From an uncultured Oscillospiraceae bacterium (GTDB lineage: Bacteria > Bacillota > Clostridia > Oscillospirales > Oscillospiraceae), in contig CANQMW010000007.1 in assembly GCA_947625045.1 (NCBI GenBank), forward strand, positions 1 to 64,000: DNA of 64,000 nucleotides. Reading direction: 5' to 3'. A model generated the notes under the pieces. It worked only from the letters and a program-made list of their open reading frames with translations, had not been told where the DNA came from and did not search any database. Below are positions 1 through 11,007 of the stretch, one piece after another (position 1 is the stretch's first letter; every line of letters starts with the position of its first letter). Position numbers and translations under genes: made by a program.

Positions 1-18
1 ATTATAGCAAAAGAAGTG

Positions 19-47
19 TTGAAATGATGAATTTTGAGGTGTATAAT
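19..47 (+). promoter_or_regulatory. sigma-A-type promoter of thsA: TTGAAA (19-24), 17-bp spacer, TATAAT (42-47)
   Basis: Direct reading; correct spacing upstream of the ORF at 119. Confidence 0.7.
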
Positions 48-59
48 ACAATAAATGAC

Positions 60-77
60 AGATAATATGGGATTATC
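60..77 (+). repeat. Left copy of 18-bp inverted repeat AGATAATATGGGATTATC (itself a dyad GATAAT-N5-ATTATC)
   Basis: Exact reverse complement at 2288-2305. Confidence 0.85.
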
Positions 78-118
78 TGCTGTTATGGCGGAGTGTAACT
101 GTAAGAAAGGGAAAAACA

Positions 119-1498
119 ATGCCGATAAGTCTGAATCAGTTTTTGAGACAATTTGCCAAGCAAGCTTTAGATGAACGCGTTTCATTATTCCTTGGTGCTG
201 GTGGGTCACGTGAAGCTGGTTACCCAAATTGGGCAGAATTATTTTCGCCAATTGCTGATGATTTGGGAACTCCCATCACAGAGGCAACTGATTTTTATCG
301 GCTTGCGCAATACTATTCCAACACTTTTGGACAGGCCGAACTCCGCAAGCGAATCAATGAACGTATAAATAGATCTAGCGCAGAAAGCCCATTGCTTAGT
401 GAATTAATCAAAATTGGTTTCACCAATATTTGGACCACAAATTTCGACAACGCTATTGAATCTTCTTTTCAAAAAAATGACGTGTTAATAAATAAAGTCT
501 TTAAAGATGCAGATTTCTCAAATATTGATATTAATAAACGTATCAATATTTTTAAAATGAATGGAGATGTGACTAATCTCGAAGGAATTGTCGCGACACA
601 AAGTGATTATGAGCAATATATTGACACGCACCGTATCATGCTCATGTTCTTCAAACGAGAGTTGCTTTCAAGCACGTTTTTGTTTATCGGCTACAGTTTT
701 ACAGACCACTTAGTCTTAGGGTGTCTAAGCGAGATAATGCGGTATCTTGGAGGAACATCTAACTATCATTATACTATCCTCAAAAACAGACGCGATGATC
801 CATACTTTAAACATTTTGTTGATGACCTAGAACAAAGGTATCATATCCGCGTGCTGCTGGTAGAAGATTATTGCGAAATAACTAATGTTCTAAAAAGGCT
901 AAACACAAGAATACAAAATCGCCGTGTCTTTATATCCGGAGCATTTAGGTCGTATGACGAGAGAATTGAAGAATACTCCCACAACCTTGCCCAAAGTCTT
1001 TCAAAGCATCTTCTCAAAGCTGATTACCGTATTGTTAATGGGATAGGAAGACACTTCGGGACGCATCTGATAGGATATGCAAACGAGTACCTTGCAAAGC
1101 AAGGAATTAAAGACATGGAGCGATATTTAATAATTAAGCCCTTTGTCAGGAACAATGAGACTGCGGCAATTGAGAAAAAAGCGATGCGGCAAAAGGTGAT
1201 AGGGCAATGTGGCGCAGCAATCTATATCTTTGGAGATCCCCCTACTAATTCTCCGCTTACGGATAGCGGGGTCTGGGAGGAGTACCAAATTGCTCACGAA
1301 CAGCATAAAGTGGTCATTCCTATAGCGTATCCGGGAATGGTATCTAGTATTATTTGGGAAACTGTAATGAAGAATGTTACAGAGTTTCCATACTTGGAGA
1401 GAGTCGGTATGTTGCTAGATTCTCAACAGCCAACCGAAATAGTAGCTAAAGTCATTGTTCAAATACTGGACTCGATCCAAGAGCGGTTAGACGATTGA
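119..1498 (+). CDS. thsA: Thoeris ThsA-like: N-terminal SIR2 NADase domain plus C-terminal SLOG domain
   Basis: SIR2 motifs (LFLGAGGSREAGYPNW, IWTTNFDNAIE, KMNGDV, FLFIGYSFTD) and SLOG-like C-terminus (RRVFISGAFRS..RIVNGIGRHFGTHLI..GQCGAAIYIFGD); TIR gene adjacent. Confidence 0.88.
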   Translation: MPISLNQFLRQFAKQALDERVSLFLGAGGSREAGYPNWAELFSPIADDLGTPITEATDFYRLAQYYSNTFGQAELRKRINERINRSSAESPLLSELIKIGFTNIWTTNFDNAIESSFQKNDVLINKVFKDADFSNIDINKRINIFKMNGDVTNLEGIVATQSDYEQYIDTHRIMLMFFKRELLSSTFLFIGYSFTDHLVLGCLSEIMRYLGGTSNYHYTILKNRRDDPYFKHFVDDLEQRYHIRVLLVEDYCEITNVLKRLNTRIQNRRVFISGAFRSYDERIEEYSHNLAQSLSKHLLKADYRIVNGIGRHFGTHLIGYANEYLAKQGIKDMERYLIIKPFVRNNETAAIEKKAMRQKVIGQCGAAIYIFGDPPTNSPLTDSGVWEEYQIAHEQHKVVIPIAYPGMVSSIIWETVMKNVTEFPYLERVGMLLDSQQPTEIVAKVIVQILDSIQERLDD

Positions 1499-2231
1499 AC
1501 AATATGCACGTGGCGTTTTCTAGTAGCCACAAATCTCGGTAGTCTATAGAGATGTTTAGCCGCAGTTCCGAAAATGCACGTTCTAATATTTTGATTGCTA
1601 CACACAACATTTCGTCGTCTTCTTCTACTCTAAAGTTTGGCGATACAGTTAGATATACTGCATAAAGCAATGCCACACGGCTATTAATATTATCTTTATC
1701 AACATTCAAATAGCAGTTAACGAGCGGCACTGCTGACTGGTATTGCTTTGAAGTCAAGTGATTTGACACATCCGTGATTTTCTTAATTAAAAGGTCTTTT
1801 ATATAGTCTTTGGTAATTCTACATGCAATGTGATTGCATATCTGATATGTTCCAGAGTGTCTGTCAACTTCCTTAAAGATTATTTCTGACACCCACTTCA
1901 ATTCACTTGGAAGTTCTCTTTGTGTGATCTCATATAGAATAGGAAATACTACTACACTTCCATCCCGATATTTGTTCCGAATGATTGATATTTCTTCCAT
2001 CGCACATACAGAAGATTCTGTGCTTTTACTAATTACTATTATTGCGTAATCGCATGCTTTTGCCCCTTCAATTAGATTCTTCTGTACGCGGTTATCTCCC
2101 ATCAACAATTCGTTTCTGTCATACCAGACCTTTATTCCATAATTATTTAGATGGTATACAAGAGGTTCCGCGATTGTATAGCGATCTTTAAACGAAAAGC
2201 AGATGAACACCTTTTTTTGTTTTGAATTCAT
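1452..2231 (-). CDS. thsB: Thoeris ThsB-like TIR-domain protein
   Basis: N-terminal TIR (KVFICFSFKDRYTIAEPLVYHLNNYGIKVWYDRNELLMGD..CDYAIIVISKS) with helical C-terminal extension; convergent with thsA. Confidence 0.85.
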   Translation of the reverse strand: MNSKQKKVFICFSFKDRYTIAEPLVYHLNNYGIKVWYDRNELLMGDNRVQKNLIEGAKACDYAIIVISKSTESSVCAMEEISIIRNKYRDGSVVVFPILYEITQRELPSELKWVSEIIFKEVDRHSGTYQICNHIACRITKDYIKDLLIKKITDVSNHLTSKQYQSAVPLVNCYLNVDKDNINSRVALLYAVYLTVSPNFRVEEDDEMLCVAIKILERAFSELRLNISIDYRDLWLLENATCILFNRLTALGSSPVFEQ

Positions 2232-2287
2232 TGTTAAACCTCGTCAATATAGTCAAATGGAACAAATGTCTATGTCACTGAATTAAG

Positions 2288-2305
2288 GATAATCCCATAT
2301 TATCT
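2288..2305 (-). repeat. Right copy of the 18-bp inverted repeat, upstream of thsB
   Basis: Reverse complement of 60-77. Confidence 0.85.
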
Positions 2306-2315
2306 TCACATATAA

Positions 2316-2345
2316 CAACGCCACCGAGTTTATTCGGCGGCGTTG
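2316..2345 (-). terminator. Hairpin AACGCCaCCGA..TCGGcGGCGTT downstream of the recombinase gene
   Basis: Stem-loop read directly; T-tract is weak. Confidence 0.5.
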
Positions 2346-2361
2346 TAGTATACGAAATGGC

Positions 2362-3270
2362 TCACAATGAGAAACTCATCTTTCCGCGTGGATGCTTTTC
2401 CGCCAGCAGCTGAGTCTGATGCTCCGCTGCCACATGCGTGTAGATCTGCGTAGTAGATATGGAGCTATGCCCTAGCAATGACTGTATATATCTAATGTCC
2501 ATGCCAGCCTCAAGCAGAGAGGTGGCGAAGGTGTGCCGGAACATGTGCGGGGTAATGTCGGTCTTTGTGTCGAGTTTGGCAAGGTACTTTCTAATAATGC
2601 GCCTGACAGACTGCGGCGAGAGCGGAGCCCCTCGATCGTTTATTAGAATGGTGTTTGTGCGCTGAATTTCGGCCTCATACTCTTTGTAGTATCTTTCTCC
2701 AAGCTGGAGCAGTTCCGGAGTAGTGATGTGAATGATACGTTCCTTACGTCCCTTGCCATAGATTAGCATCTTCATATCGTTGGTGTCGACGGAAAAGGTG
2801 TTATTGGAAAGAGAGCACAACTCGGATACCCTGGCACCGCTGCTGAACAACAGTTCCAGCACGAATATATCCCGCAGGACCTTCCGACGCCCTGGGACAT
2901 AAGCCCCATAAGCACATCGCAGAAGATCCTGAACCGTTCGCTCGGGGATCGTCCGCGGGAGTTGTTTAGACATGTGTATTTTTATGTGTAGTTTATCGAA
3001 AGGGTTGTTCTCCACCTCGCCGTTCTGCTCTAACGCATGATAAAAAGCGCATACGCTTGCTAGTTTCCGCTTCACCGATCTCGGGGCAAAGTGAATATTC
3101 AAATACTTGACGTATTCGCTCAATCTATCCTTTTCTGGCCAAGCACCATTTGTAAACTGGGAGAATTGTGCAAGATCGATACGATACGCTTTTACCGTGT
3201 GAGGAGATAGCTCCTTCTCATGCTCGCAGGCTTCCAAATACGTCTTAATGGCCTCGTTGATTTGTTTCAT
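2362..3270 (-). CDS. Tyrosine recombinase/integrase (XerC/D-like)
   Basis: SSGARVSEL, HMFRHTFATSLLEAG and LLGHSSISTTQIYTH catalytic boxes; start at MKQINEA preferred over the longer ORF to 3453. Confidence 0.92.
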   Translation of the reverse strand: MKQINEAIKTYLEACEHEKELSPHTVKAYRIDLAQFSQFTNGAWPEKDRLSEYVKYLNIHFAPRSVKRKLASVCAFYHALEQNGEVENNPFDKLHIKIHMSKQLPRTIPERTVQDLLRCAYGAYVPGRRKVLRDIFVLELLFSSGARVSELCSLSNNTFSVDTNDMKMLIYGKGRKERIIHITTPELLQLGERYYKEYEAEIQRTNTILINDRGAPLSPQSVRRIIRKYLAKLDTKTDITPHMFRHTFATSLLEAGMDIRYIQSLLGHSSISTTQIYTHVAAEHQTQLLAEKHPRGKMSFSL

Positions 3271-3703
3271 GGCGCCCTCCATAGTAAGGTATTTCTTCGA
3301 CATTATGGAGGCAGCTTTGCTCTTTGTCCAGCAGGATCCAGAATAATGCCAAGCATCATCAGTGATGCACTGATCAGCATCCAGCAGCCGCACCGCAACC
3401 CATCGCCTCCTCGGCAAGGGGCTGTTAGACATACACTGACCGGATGCGGTCAAGGCATCCAGGAGTGTATCATCAACCTGGAGGATACCCCACGTTGTAT
3501 TTATGAGACGCAGGCGGAAAAGCTGGTGCCCAGCCTCCTCTGACGAATGATTATAATGCCCATACTCACATCTTTTCTGATAACAAGTAGGTATGGGTAT
3601 TCATCCTATAGACTTGACTGGCAGTCAAGAATGTGACTCCCAGTTTATTGCATTGGAGAAGGCCCTGTGGTACAATTGGCAAAAAAGAACGCTGGGGGCT
3701 ATC

Positions 3704-5700: not shown

Positions 5701-6156
5701 ATGAAAGCGATTGCCACTAATCTGTGTAACAACATCCTGGAACGCGGTAAGCACGATAGTATTCGCATCACCCCAATGAAGTTGCAGAAGCTGCTGTACT
5801 ATATCTGCCGTGATTACGTTATCGAAACGGGTCAAATGCCAATAGCAGAGCAATTCCAAGTATGGCAATATGGACCGGTACTAGAATCTGTGTATGGAGA
5901 ATTCAAAGATTTTGGCGCACGCCCTATCACATCCTTCGCCAAGAATGCAAGCGGACGGTCATATATGGTCAGCGAGGATAAAAACCCGATCTTAGCCAGG
6001 ATCATTGATATCGTCTGGGCAACGCATAAAGACAAATCTGGCATTACCCTTTCCAGAATGACGCATCAAACCGGTTCCGGGTGGATGACCGCATTTCTTG
6101 ATGGCCGGGACACCATTACAGAGGAGGATATGAAAAATGACACAACAGGAAGATAA
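5701..6156 (+). CDS. Panacea-domain (DUF4065) protein, putative antitoxin
   Basis: MKLQKLLYYICRDYVIETGQMPIAEQFQVWQYGPVLESVYGEFKDFG. Confidence 0.85.
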   Translation: MKAIATNLCNNILERGKHDSIRITPMKLQKLLYYICRDYVIETGQMPIAEQFQVWQYGPVLESVYGEFKDFGARPITSFAKNASGRSYMVSEDKNPILARIIDIVWATHKDKSGITLSRMTHQTGSGWMTAFLDGRDTITEEDMKNDTTGR

Positions 6157-6836: not shown

Positions 6837-8081
6837 GTGGTATACTATCTTCAGATGGAGGTGATCGTTTTGGTTTACAGACCTATGTATGTAGATAGGA
6901 TCATGGCCTATGTGGACACGCCCTTTGTGAAGGTGTTGACAGGTGTTCGTCGCTGTGGGAAGTCCACTATATTGAAAATGATTATGGAAAAACTACGGGT
7001 GGAAGGAAATATCCCTGACGACCGGATCATAAGCCGCCGTTATGATTCGATGGAATATGCGGATATGACTGCAAAACAGATGTACGCTGAACTGAAACAA
7101 CTCCTATCCCCCACCGACAGAACGTATTTGTTTCTTGATGAGGTGCAGGAGATCAAGGGCTGGGAAAGGGTCGTCAATTCACTTGCCTCAAATCATAATG
7201 TGGATCTATATGTGACAGGCTCCAACTCCCGCATGATGTCCTCAGAGATATCCACATACCTGACAGGAAGATATGTCACTTTTCGCATCTACACGCTCTC
7301 ATTTGCTGAGTACCTGAAGTTCAAGGAAGTATACAGCTCTGTTGCGGACCCAAGGACAGAACTGGCGGAATATGTTCGCTTGGGCGGATTCCCAGCAACG
7401 CATCTGCGGAAGTATTCTCAGGATGAAATATATACCATCGTGCGGGATATATACAATTCTACCATTTTTGCTGACATTGTGCGGCGCAATCAGGTAAGAA
7501 AGATCGACCAGCTGGAGCGGGTCGTCAAATTCACGTTCAACAATGTAGGCAATACTTTTTCCGCGAAGTCTATCTCGGATTATTTAAAATCAGAGAACCG
7601 GAAGATCGACAATGAAACCGTGTATAGCTATCTGGAAAAGCTGGAGAAAGCGTATTTGCTTCACCGCTGCTCCAGATATGACATACAAGGCAAGGAACTG
7701 CTAAAAACGCAGGAGAAATTTTATCTTGCGGATACATCCTTGAGATACAGTGTTTTAGGCTATAATGCCGATACAGTCGCTGCGAGTCTTGAGAACATTG
7801 TCTACTTGGAACTCTGTCGCAGAGGTTACACTGTCCATATTGGGAAAACCAATGATGGAGAAATAGATTTCATAGGCACAAGGCAGAATGAAAAGCTCTA
7901 TGCTCAGGTCACCCAGGAGGTCCGTTCCGAGAAAGCTGAAAAACGTGAATATCATCGTCTGCTTGAAATACATGACAACTATCCCAAATATGTATTAAGA
8001 GCGGATGAGTTTGCAGGAGGAAACTACGAAGGCATAAAAACGATGCATATAGCCGATTTCCTTCTCAGTTCGGAGTACTAA
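6837..8081 (+). CDS. AAA_14/DUF4143-family ATPase
   Basis: GVRRCGKST Walker A, YLFLDEVQEIKGWE Walker B, YVTGSNSRMMSSEISTYLTGRY; DUF4143-like C-terminus. Confidence 0.88.
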   Translation: MVYYLQMEVIVLVYRPMYVDRIMAYVDTPFVKVLTGVRRCGKSTILKMIMEKLRVEGNIPDDRIISRRYDSMEYADMTAKQMYAELKQLLSPTDRTYLFLDEVQEIKGWERVVNSLASNHNVDLYVTGSNSRMMSSEISTYLTGRYVTFRIYTLSFAEYLKFKEVYSSVADPRTELAEYVRLGGFPATHLRKYSQDEIYTIVRDIYNSTIFADIVRRNQVRKIDQLERVVKFTFNNVGNTFSAKSISDYLKSENRKIDNETVYSYLEKLEKAYLLHRCSRYDIQGKELLKTQEKFYLADTSLRYSVLGYNADTVAASLENIVYLELCRRGYTVHIGKTNDGEIDFIGTRQNEKLYAQVTQEVRSEKAEKREYHRLLEIHDNYPKYVLRADEFAGGNYEGIKTMHIADFLLSSEY

Positions 8082-10173: not shown

Positions 10174-11007
10174 ATGAAAAGAGCAGACTGCAGCGGCGCG
10201 GTCATCCGCCTTGATGTTGCCACCAACGCCCCCTACAACATGGAGTCAGAGCGGGAAAGAAACGTCATCGGTTGCCGCATCAAAGAGGGGCGGCACAGAA
10301 TCGGGATGAATCTGGACGCCTTCTGCGAACACCTCAAGGACTACGGCGTTTCCGTAGGCCGCGGCGGACTCAGCAAGTGGGAAACGGGAGCGACGATCCC
10401 AAACGCATAGCAGCTGGTCGCTCTGGGCTATGCTCTCGGCGTAGAGCAGGACCCGGATTACTTCACAGGTGACTGCCACCGTGACCTGAACGATGAAGGC
10501 ATGAGAAAGGTCGCCTCATATAGGGCCGACCTGATCGCCTCCGGCAGGTACACGCCCGAGGCTCTCGAAACTGACTCCCATGGCTCCATCAAGTATATCG
10601 AGATGCCCATCAGCGACCTGTGTGTTTCCGCCGGCCCCAGTAACTTCATGGACGAGGAAAATTTCGAGCTGGTTTCTTTCCCTGCTGCTGCCGTTCCAGC
10701 GAAAGCTGATTTTGGCGTCCGTGTGTCCGGTGACAGTATGGAGCCTGCATACCATGACGGCCAGATCGTCTGGGTCGAGCAGTGCAGCCGTCTCAATGTC
10801 GGGGATGTAGGCGTTTTCATCTACGACAATGCCGGCTATTTGAAATCCTACAGCGAACAGCAGCCTGCCGAGGACATTTCCGATGCTTTCACAGACAGCA
10901 GCGGTAATTTGCGGCCGCAGCCGGTCCTCATTTCCTATAACCGGAAATATGCCCCGAAGGTCATCTCCCCCAGCTACCCATTCCAGATCCTCGGGAAAGT
11001 GCTCTGA
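10174..11007 (+). pseudogene. HTH plus S24 (LexA/CI-like) repressor interrupted by in-frame TAG at 10408-10410
   Basis: HTH ORF 10174-10410 and S24 ORF 10501-11007 are in one frame, open from 10411; VSGDSMEPAYHDGQIVWV Ser motif, GYLKSY Lys motif. Confidence 0.8.

Follow-up and report, generated by a model that had tools for sequence, protein, structure and literature searches.

Why should two facing genes of an immune-like pair each be preceded by the same 18-bp dyad? The question is raised by the left end of the window analysed here, a 64,000-nucleotide stretch from an uncultured Oscillospiraceae bacterium (assembly GCA_947625045.1, contig CANQMW010000007.1, hereafter C7), in which a gene for a ThsA-like effector (thsA) converges on a gene for a TIR-domain protein next to a tyrosine recombinase gene. 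An earlier sequence-only reading offered two answers: either one regulator binds the promoters of both genes, or the dyads are recombination sites whose inversion swaps the promoters driving the two genes. We consider it very probable that the motifs are crossover sites of the adjacent recombinase, and that the segment between them is a flip-flop that would express the two halves of an immune-like system alternately. Support is good for the switch itself but not for its role.

The dyad AGATAATATGGGATTATC was located at 60-77 on the forward strand and its exact inverted copy at 2288-2305, just where the sequence-only reading had put them. Between the left site and the ATG at 119 there are 41 bp, and between the right site and the ATG at 2231 there are 56 bp, in agreement with the 40-60 bp given before, and such short distances leave little room for an internal promoter. 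A search of the window with the 17-mer, allowing up to 3 mismatches, gave 2 matches against 0.21 expected by chance. Genome-wide, the sole further exact copy makes up the final 17 bp of contig C55, the degenerate pattern GATAAT-N5-ATTATC matched only the two window sites and the C55 end, and a reversed-pattern control gave 0 hits. The genome-wide check proposed by the sequence-only reading thus came out in its favour, the motif being confined to this locus and the C55 copy. Because window positions 1-77 are identical to the last 77 bp of C55, that copy is taken to be the left site again, reached from across a break in the assembly. When contigs have a fixed-length end in common, the k-mer assembly graph has branched at that place; here the inner ends of the cassette diverge right at the branch, with T beside thsA and C beside the TIR gene. 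A branch of C55 and C7 at the left site is what mixed orientations would produce.

Relatives of the recombinase were sought in GTDB genomes, plasmids and phages, and 31 distinct two-site cassettes, from Clostridia, Streptococcus and Aliarcobacter, were examined, with identical or inverted copies counted once. Most close relatives have a GC-rich hairpin downstream of the recombinase and then a GATAAT-N5-ATTATC site, followed, where the contig continues, by an inverted second site with the same spacer 1.8-7.7 kb away. The sites are simple 17-bp dyads, one at each cassette end, and the spacers vary between loci (ATGGG, TCGGG, AAAGA, AAGCA, CTGCA, CTCTT and others). Constant arms combined with a variable spacer that matches within each pair are the pattern expected of tyrosine-recombinase crossover sites. 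On Aliarcobacter plasmids the recombinase is about 40% identical, the site reads AATAAT-AGGAT-ATTATA, and the recombinase gene ends about 30 bp before it without a hairpin. On megaplasmids of the Streptococcus salivarius type (recombinase 36% identical, site GATAA-TAAATTG-TTATC), the cassette lies on the opposite side of the recombinase gene, which is transcribed away from it. Among more distant recombinases of about 42-48% identity, a site pair was found in loci L110, L149, L152, L158 and L159, and one or no recognisable site in others. In the complete genome G370 both recombinase and hairpin are present, with a transposase-like sequence where the cassette would be.

Inversion itself is seen directly in relatives. 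Between Aliarcobacter cryaerophilus ATCC 43158 and M830MA, both complete plasmid records, a 3458-bp cassette (99.9% identical) is reversed exactly from site to site, while its flanks, 99.8-99.9% identical, keep the direct orientation. The gut genomes L007 and L008 carry a 7711-bp cassette, 99.1% identical, in reversed orientations. In the plasmid record of Streptococcus equinus FDAARGOS_251 the region is present twice with the cassette in opposite orientations; the duplicate may be an assembly redundancy, in which case it would reflect two orientations in one culture. Assemblies also tend to stop at the sites: 10 of the 31 contigs that carry the recombinase run out no more than 8 bp from the first site, those of L019 and L034 stop right at the second, and the window contig likewise breaks at a site. 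The outcome is the opposite of what the sequence-only reading had named as speaking against it, namely a motif scattered at random, missing from orthologous loci and never inverted, the inversion seen being that in relatives. The window itself has the intact catalytic residues R-K-H-R-H-Y and inverted repeats with an identical crossover region that are expected of a tyrosine-recombinase invertible element. Both orientations between constant flanks occur in the relatives and, for the window's genome, are represented by the contig break only, from which, together with the relatives, inversion of the window copy is inferred.

Which gene would then be transcribed? Promoters were called as consensus matches only. 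The TTGAAA-17-TATAAT promoter that the sequence-only reading had noted just upstream of the left copy is present, while the second promoter it supposed at the right copy is not, since the outer side of that site carries the hairpin and then the 3' end of the recombinase gene (Table 1). A TATAAT or TATACT lies within 35 bp outside the distal site, the one away from the recombinase, in 12 of 20 clostridial cassettes, compared with a mean of 1.2 and a maximum of 5 in 1000 trials with shuffled distal sequences. The same boxes were found in none of the 20 cassettes on the recombinase side, and at 1 of 40 positions just inside the sites. In the Streptococcus loci and two Aliarcobacter loci, TATACT stands 3-9 bp outside the distal site. 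Thus, the idea that inversion changes the driven gene stood, given the inversion pairs in relatives, but the exchange of two promoters did not, because a single outside promoter would drive either thsA or the TIR gene.

Table 1. Coordinates of the invertible cassette and its surroundings in the window.
Feature	Position	Strand	Basis
77-bp stretch with which contig C7 starts and contig C55 ends	1..77	+	assembly branch ending on the left site's last base
Promoter TTGAAA-17-TATAAT outside the left (distal) site, directed into the cassette	19..47	+	consensus match; -10 position conserved in relatives
Left recombination site, AGATAAT-ATGGG-ATTATC	60..77	+	motif search
ThsA-like effector, SIR2 and STALD domains, 459 aa; TTNFD kept, KMNGD replaces KMHGD	119..1498	+	
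3'-end overlap of the convergent genes, 47 bp	1452..1498	.	
TIR-domain protein, 259 aa, ThsB-like partner	1452..2231	-	
Right recombination site, identical to the left one but inverted	2288..2305	-	motif search
GC-rich terminator-like hairpin separating the right site from the recombinase gene; lacks a strong T run here	2315..2346	.	
XerC/D-like tyrosine recombinase, 311 aa from ATG; catalytic R-K-H-R-H-Y intact	2362..3297	-	

Taken together, these data suggest how the switch would operate. The adjacent recombinase would invert the cassette of about 2.2 kb between the two sites, in front of a fixed promoter that reads in from outside the left site and has no comparable counterpart next to the recombinase or within either end of the cassette. 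With the segment oriented as assembled, the promoter would drive the ThsA-like effector and, since the genes overlap at their 3' ends, its transcript would carry on into the TIR gene as antisense RNA. A flip would place the TIR gene behind the promoter and make thsA the gene read antisense, window 1-77 then being joined to the TIR side (GGGATTATC-CTTAATTCAG). Each cell line would express one half, and both proteins would be present together only briefly after a flip. Judged from layout and promoter matches, expression is therefore predicted to be exclusive.

The enzyme that putatively catalyses this inversion is the window recombinase. The sequence-only reading had noticed a tyrosine recombinase nearby, and the gene is indeed intact, adjoining the cassette. 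Its product carries the Phage_integrase (tyrosine) domain and resembles XerC and XerD, the best models, with scores under the cut-off of every curated model; the six catalytic residues are intact in it and in 20 relatives, and its reading frame stays open to 3453 with a TTG start. The hairpin beside the right site is predicted at -28.4 kcal/mol (z -7.4). A prophage or phage origin of the recombinase was considered and rejected: this query found no IMG/VR relative, and phage records yielded only unannotated relatives with no more than 45% identity. The unverified 'Bacteriophage sp.' entry MT835475.1 (L123) has repeats in common with the recombinase regions of the bacterial genomes L117 and L118, and so may be a chromosomal or integrated element.

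The site-bounded segment is also exchanged. Loci L012 and L014 have unrelated cassettes in flanks that agree as far as the sites, with 95% identity on the distal side and 90% next to the recombinase; on the plasmids of the S. salivarius type, three different cassettes occupy one slot whose flanks match up to the site. Similarly, the window and L007 are alike in the recombinase (94% at the DNA level) and the distal flank (79%), and not in the cassette. On the other hand, the cassette common to L007 and L008 adjoins recombinase flanks only 84% identical. Flanks that stay constant while cassettes differ indicate that the segment can be exchanged as a unit besides being inverted as one.

Some loci hold more than one set of sites. 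In L021 a second dyad with a different spacer (GATAATTTAGGATTATC, 10780-10824) lies 11 bp from the distal site and is possibly the remnant of an earlier cassette. On the contig of L047 (377-7605), about 1.6 kb separates two site-bounded cassettes whose spacers differ, and the single Aliarcobacter plasmid NZ_CP032824.1 has two independent recombinase-cassette loci with different sites (L128 and L132).

The gene contents of the cassettes follow a common plan, with convergent gene sets in 30 of 31 and, in most, a sensor/effector-like side opposite an enzyme set. SIR2-STALD proteins face TIR proteins in 3 cassettes, one of which has extra kinase and HAD genes. AAA/STAND-TPR proteins, one of them with a SIR2 domain, face ATP-grasp enzymes, which stand alone or together with a glycosyltransferase, a nucleotidyltransferase or other enzymes. 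The ATP-grasp family occurs in 10 cassettes, 9 times opposite a large AAA/STAND protein and once (L018, whose enzyme side is an aminotransferase plus ATP-grasp) opposite a pentapeptide-repeat protein; on one Streptococcus plasmid an aminotransferase alone faces STAND-TPR. Other pairs set multi-pass membrane proteins against polyprenyl synthases, membrane/GNAT-like proteins against a methyltransferase family, AAA proteins against glycosyltransferase sets or methyltransferase/PLP enzymes, and TIR against radical SAM. The cassettes of L092 and L159 have no recognisable domains. An all-against-all comparison of cassette proteins showed that pairs are kept across distant hosts: the ThsA and TIR families co-occur in the same 3 cassettes (3/3), and the methyltransferase family and its partner family likewise share 3 cassettes, which come from Clostridia, Streptococcus and Aliarcobacter. 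Nine effector-side proteins compared with PADLOC gave no clear described system, with SIR2-domain similarity in one. Therefore 'defence' is an analogy for the cassettes other than the Thoeris-like and SIR2 ones.

Could the dyads be operators after all, with one regulator bound at both ends to co-regulate thsA and the TIR gene? The motif is palindromic, lies in both 5' leaders and, in the left copy, follows just after a promoter. We nevertheless find this scarcely credible and rejected it, because a second promoter is lacking at the right copy and one and the same cassette can be found either way round within unchanged flanks, with the motif as its exact boundary; moreover, spacer identity tracks the locus and not a regulator sequence, and no regulator gene is common to the cassettes. 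The single regulator of the sequence-only reading falls with it, as there is one promoter and the dyads behave as crossover sites. It is decidedly unlikely that the sites serve mainly for integron-like acquisition and exchange of cassettes, inversion being a by-product with no regulatory role. The constant flanks around differing cassettes and the near-identical cassette in differing flanks fit such a role, but it leaves unexplained why in almost every cassette two facing gene sets each start at a site and have one outside promoter.

The flip-flop may also be real and yet mean something else. That the halves are unrelated alternatives, like two tail fibres, and not one system would suit the layout, since alternative gene sets are so arranged in the Mu G segment, but the pairings conserved across distant hosts (ThsA with TIR, ATP-grasp with AAA/STAND, methyltransferase with its partner) make it rather improbable. 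Somewhat unlikely, too, is inversion with non-exclusive expression, in which read-through from the recombinase or weak internal promoters feed the silent side and a flip shifts the effector:enzyme ratio. The matched pairs suggest that the halves are needed together, and in Aliarcobacter the recombinase ends close to the site with no hairpin between. Against it stand the strong hairpin at the recombinase-side site in most Clostridia, the Streptococcus recombinase transcribed away from the cassette, the near absence of -10 boxes inside the ends, and an ON transcript that would be antisense to the overlapping OFF side. Several points weigh against an exclusive flip-flop: 8 of 20 clostridial cassettes have no exact TATAAT or TATACT at the distal site, the promoters are known as consensus matches alone, read-through could feed the silent side in the hairpin-less Aliarcobacter loci, L108 has all its genes in a single direction, and inversion of the window copy is argued from the contig break and the relatives.

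If expression is exclusive, either maker and responder meet shortly after a flip, so that a small fraction of cells is armed (bet-hedging), or siblings exchange a signal (division of labour); otherwise both halves would be expressed after all, though unequally. Exclusivity would most likely serve to divide labour, or to hedge bets, between cells that make the signal and cells that respond to it. A broader proposal, tentative and less likely than not, is that the cassettes form a cross-phylum class of conflict systems acting as maker-or-responder switches, in which a small-molecule or modification enzyme set faces the matching sensor/effector, the signal comes from opposite-phase siblings or from the cell's recent past, and strains trade cassettes via the same sites. 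Signal-making and signal-sensing halves, as in Thoeris, are understood as acting in the same cell; a widespread layout that made expression of the halves switchable and mutually exclusive would mean that sister cells can divide such immunity among them, or that it is armed for just a short time following a flip. Matching recombination sites also serve as markers of new effector/enzyme pairs, such as STAND/ATP-grasp, membrane protein/prenyl synthase and TIR/radical SAM.

How does this element compare with known systems? In the Mu G and P1 C segments, inverted by Gin and Cin, an outside promoter drives one of two opposed gene sets at a time. The present element, judged by its layout and -10 statistics, would likewise be invertible with two opposed gene sets and one external promoter; those phage segments use a serine recombinase with an enhancer and carry tail-fibre genes, whereas here an Xer-like tyrosine recombinase is combined with immune-like pairs in exchangeable cassettes. 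It is like an integron in having a tyrosine recombinase, a fixed promoter and exchangeable cassettes in one slot, and unlike one in having a single cassette between two inverted simple sites and no array; the recombinase scores 91 bits with the integron-integrase model against a cut-off of 265, and so is not of the IntI type. Reversible inversion by tyrosine recombinases at short inverted repeats is described, in the available portions of the reports, for fimS with FimB/E, for Clostridioides difficile RecV and for Streptococcus pneumoniae hsdS (PMC7446863, PMC4948785, PMC9993118). As far as these portions go, such switches turn a promoter or a leader round, or rearrange parts of genes, whereas here whole convergent gene sets would flip before a fixed promoter. 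DNA inversion has been linked to phage resistance for PinQ of the E. coli Qin prophage (PMC12529663); that case, according to the accessible text, differs from this cassette in involving a serine recombinase, a cryptic prophage and an effect on adsorption. Our literature search, whose coverage left out subscription papers and bioRxiv, returned no earlier description of such cassettes. The mechanism would be a new variant of DNA-inversion switching, while the maker-or-responder reading, if borne out, would be new in kind.

The relation to type I Thoeris is close in composition, a SIR2-STALD protein being paired with a neighbouring TIR protein. The ThsA-like protein matches BcThsA (6lhx) with E 1.3e-55; the TIR protein matches TIR_2 (1.3e-14) and, over the TIR domain only, the PADLOC ThsB model (1e-10). 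Unlike in Thoeris, the genes are convergent, overlapping and held in an invertible cassette, a layout that would argue against the co-expression of ThsA and TIR expected of type I. Of the catalytic Asn and His of ThsA, the Asn of TTNFD is kept and the His position of BcThsA is Asn (KMNGD, not KMHGD) in the window, L019 (11210-12583) and L047 (5368-6846), the latter two proteins having 36-63% identity to the window protein. Among 400 family genomes only 2 proved to have this ThsA type, both times in site-bounded cassettes. Because of the Asn at the catalytic His position, the sub-family may not be a standard NADase.

Beyond the cassette, the window encodes a SocA/Panacea antitoxin-like protein at 5701-6156 and, 4 kb past the recombinase, an AAA_14/DUF4143 protein (6837-8081) with a strong match to the candidate PADLOC system PDC-S01.
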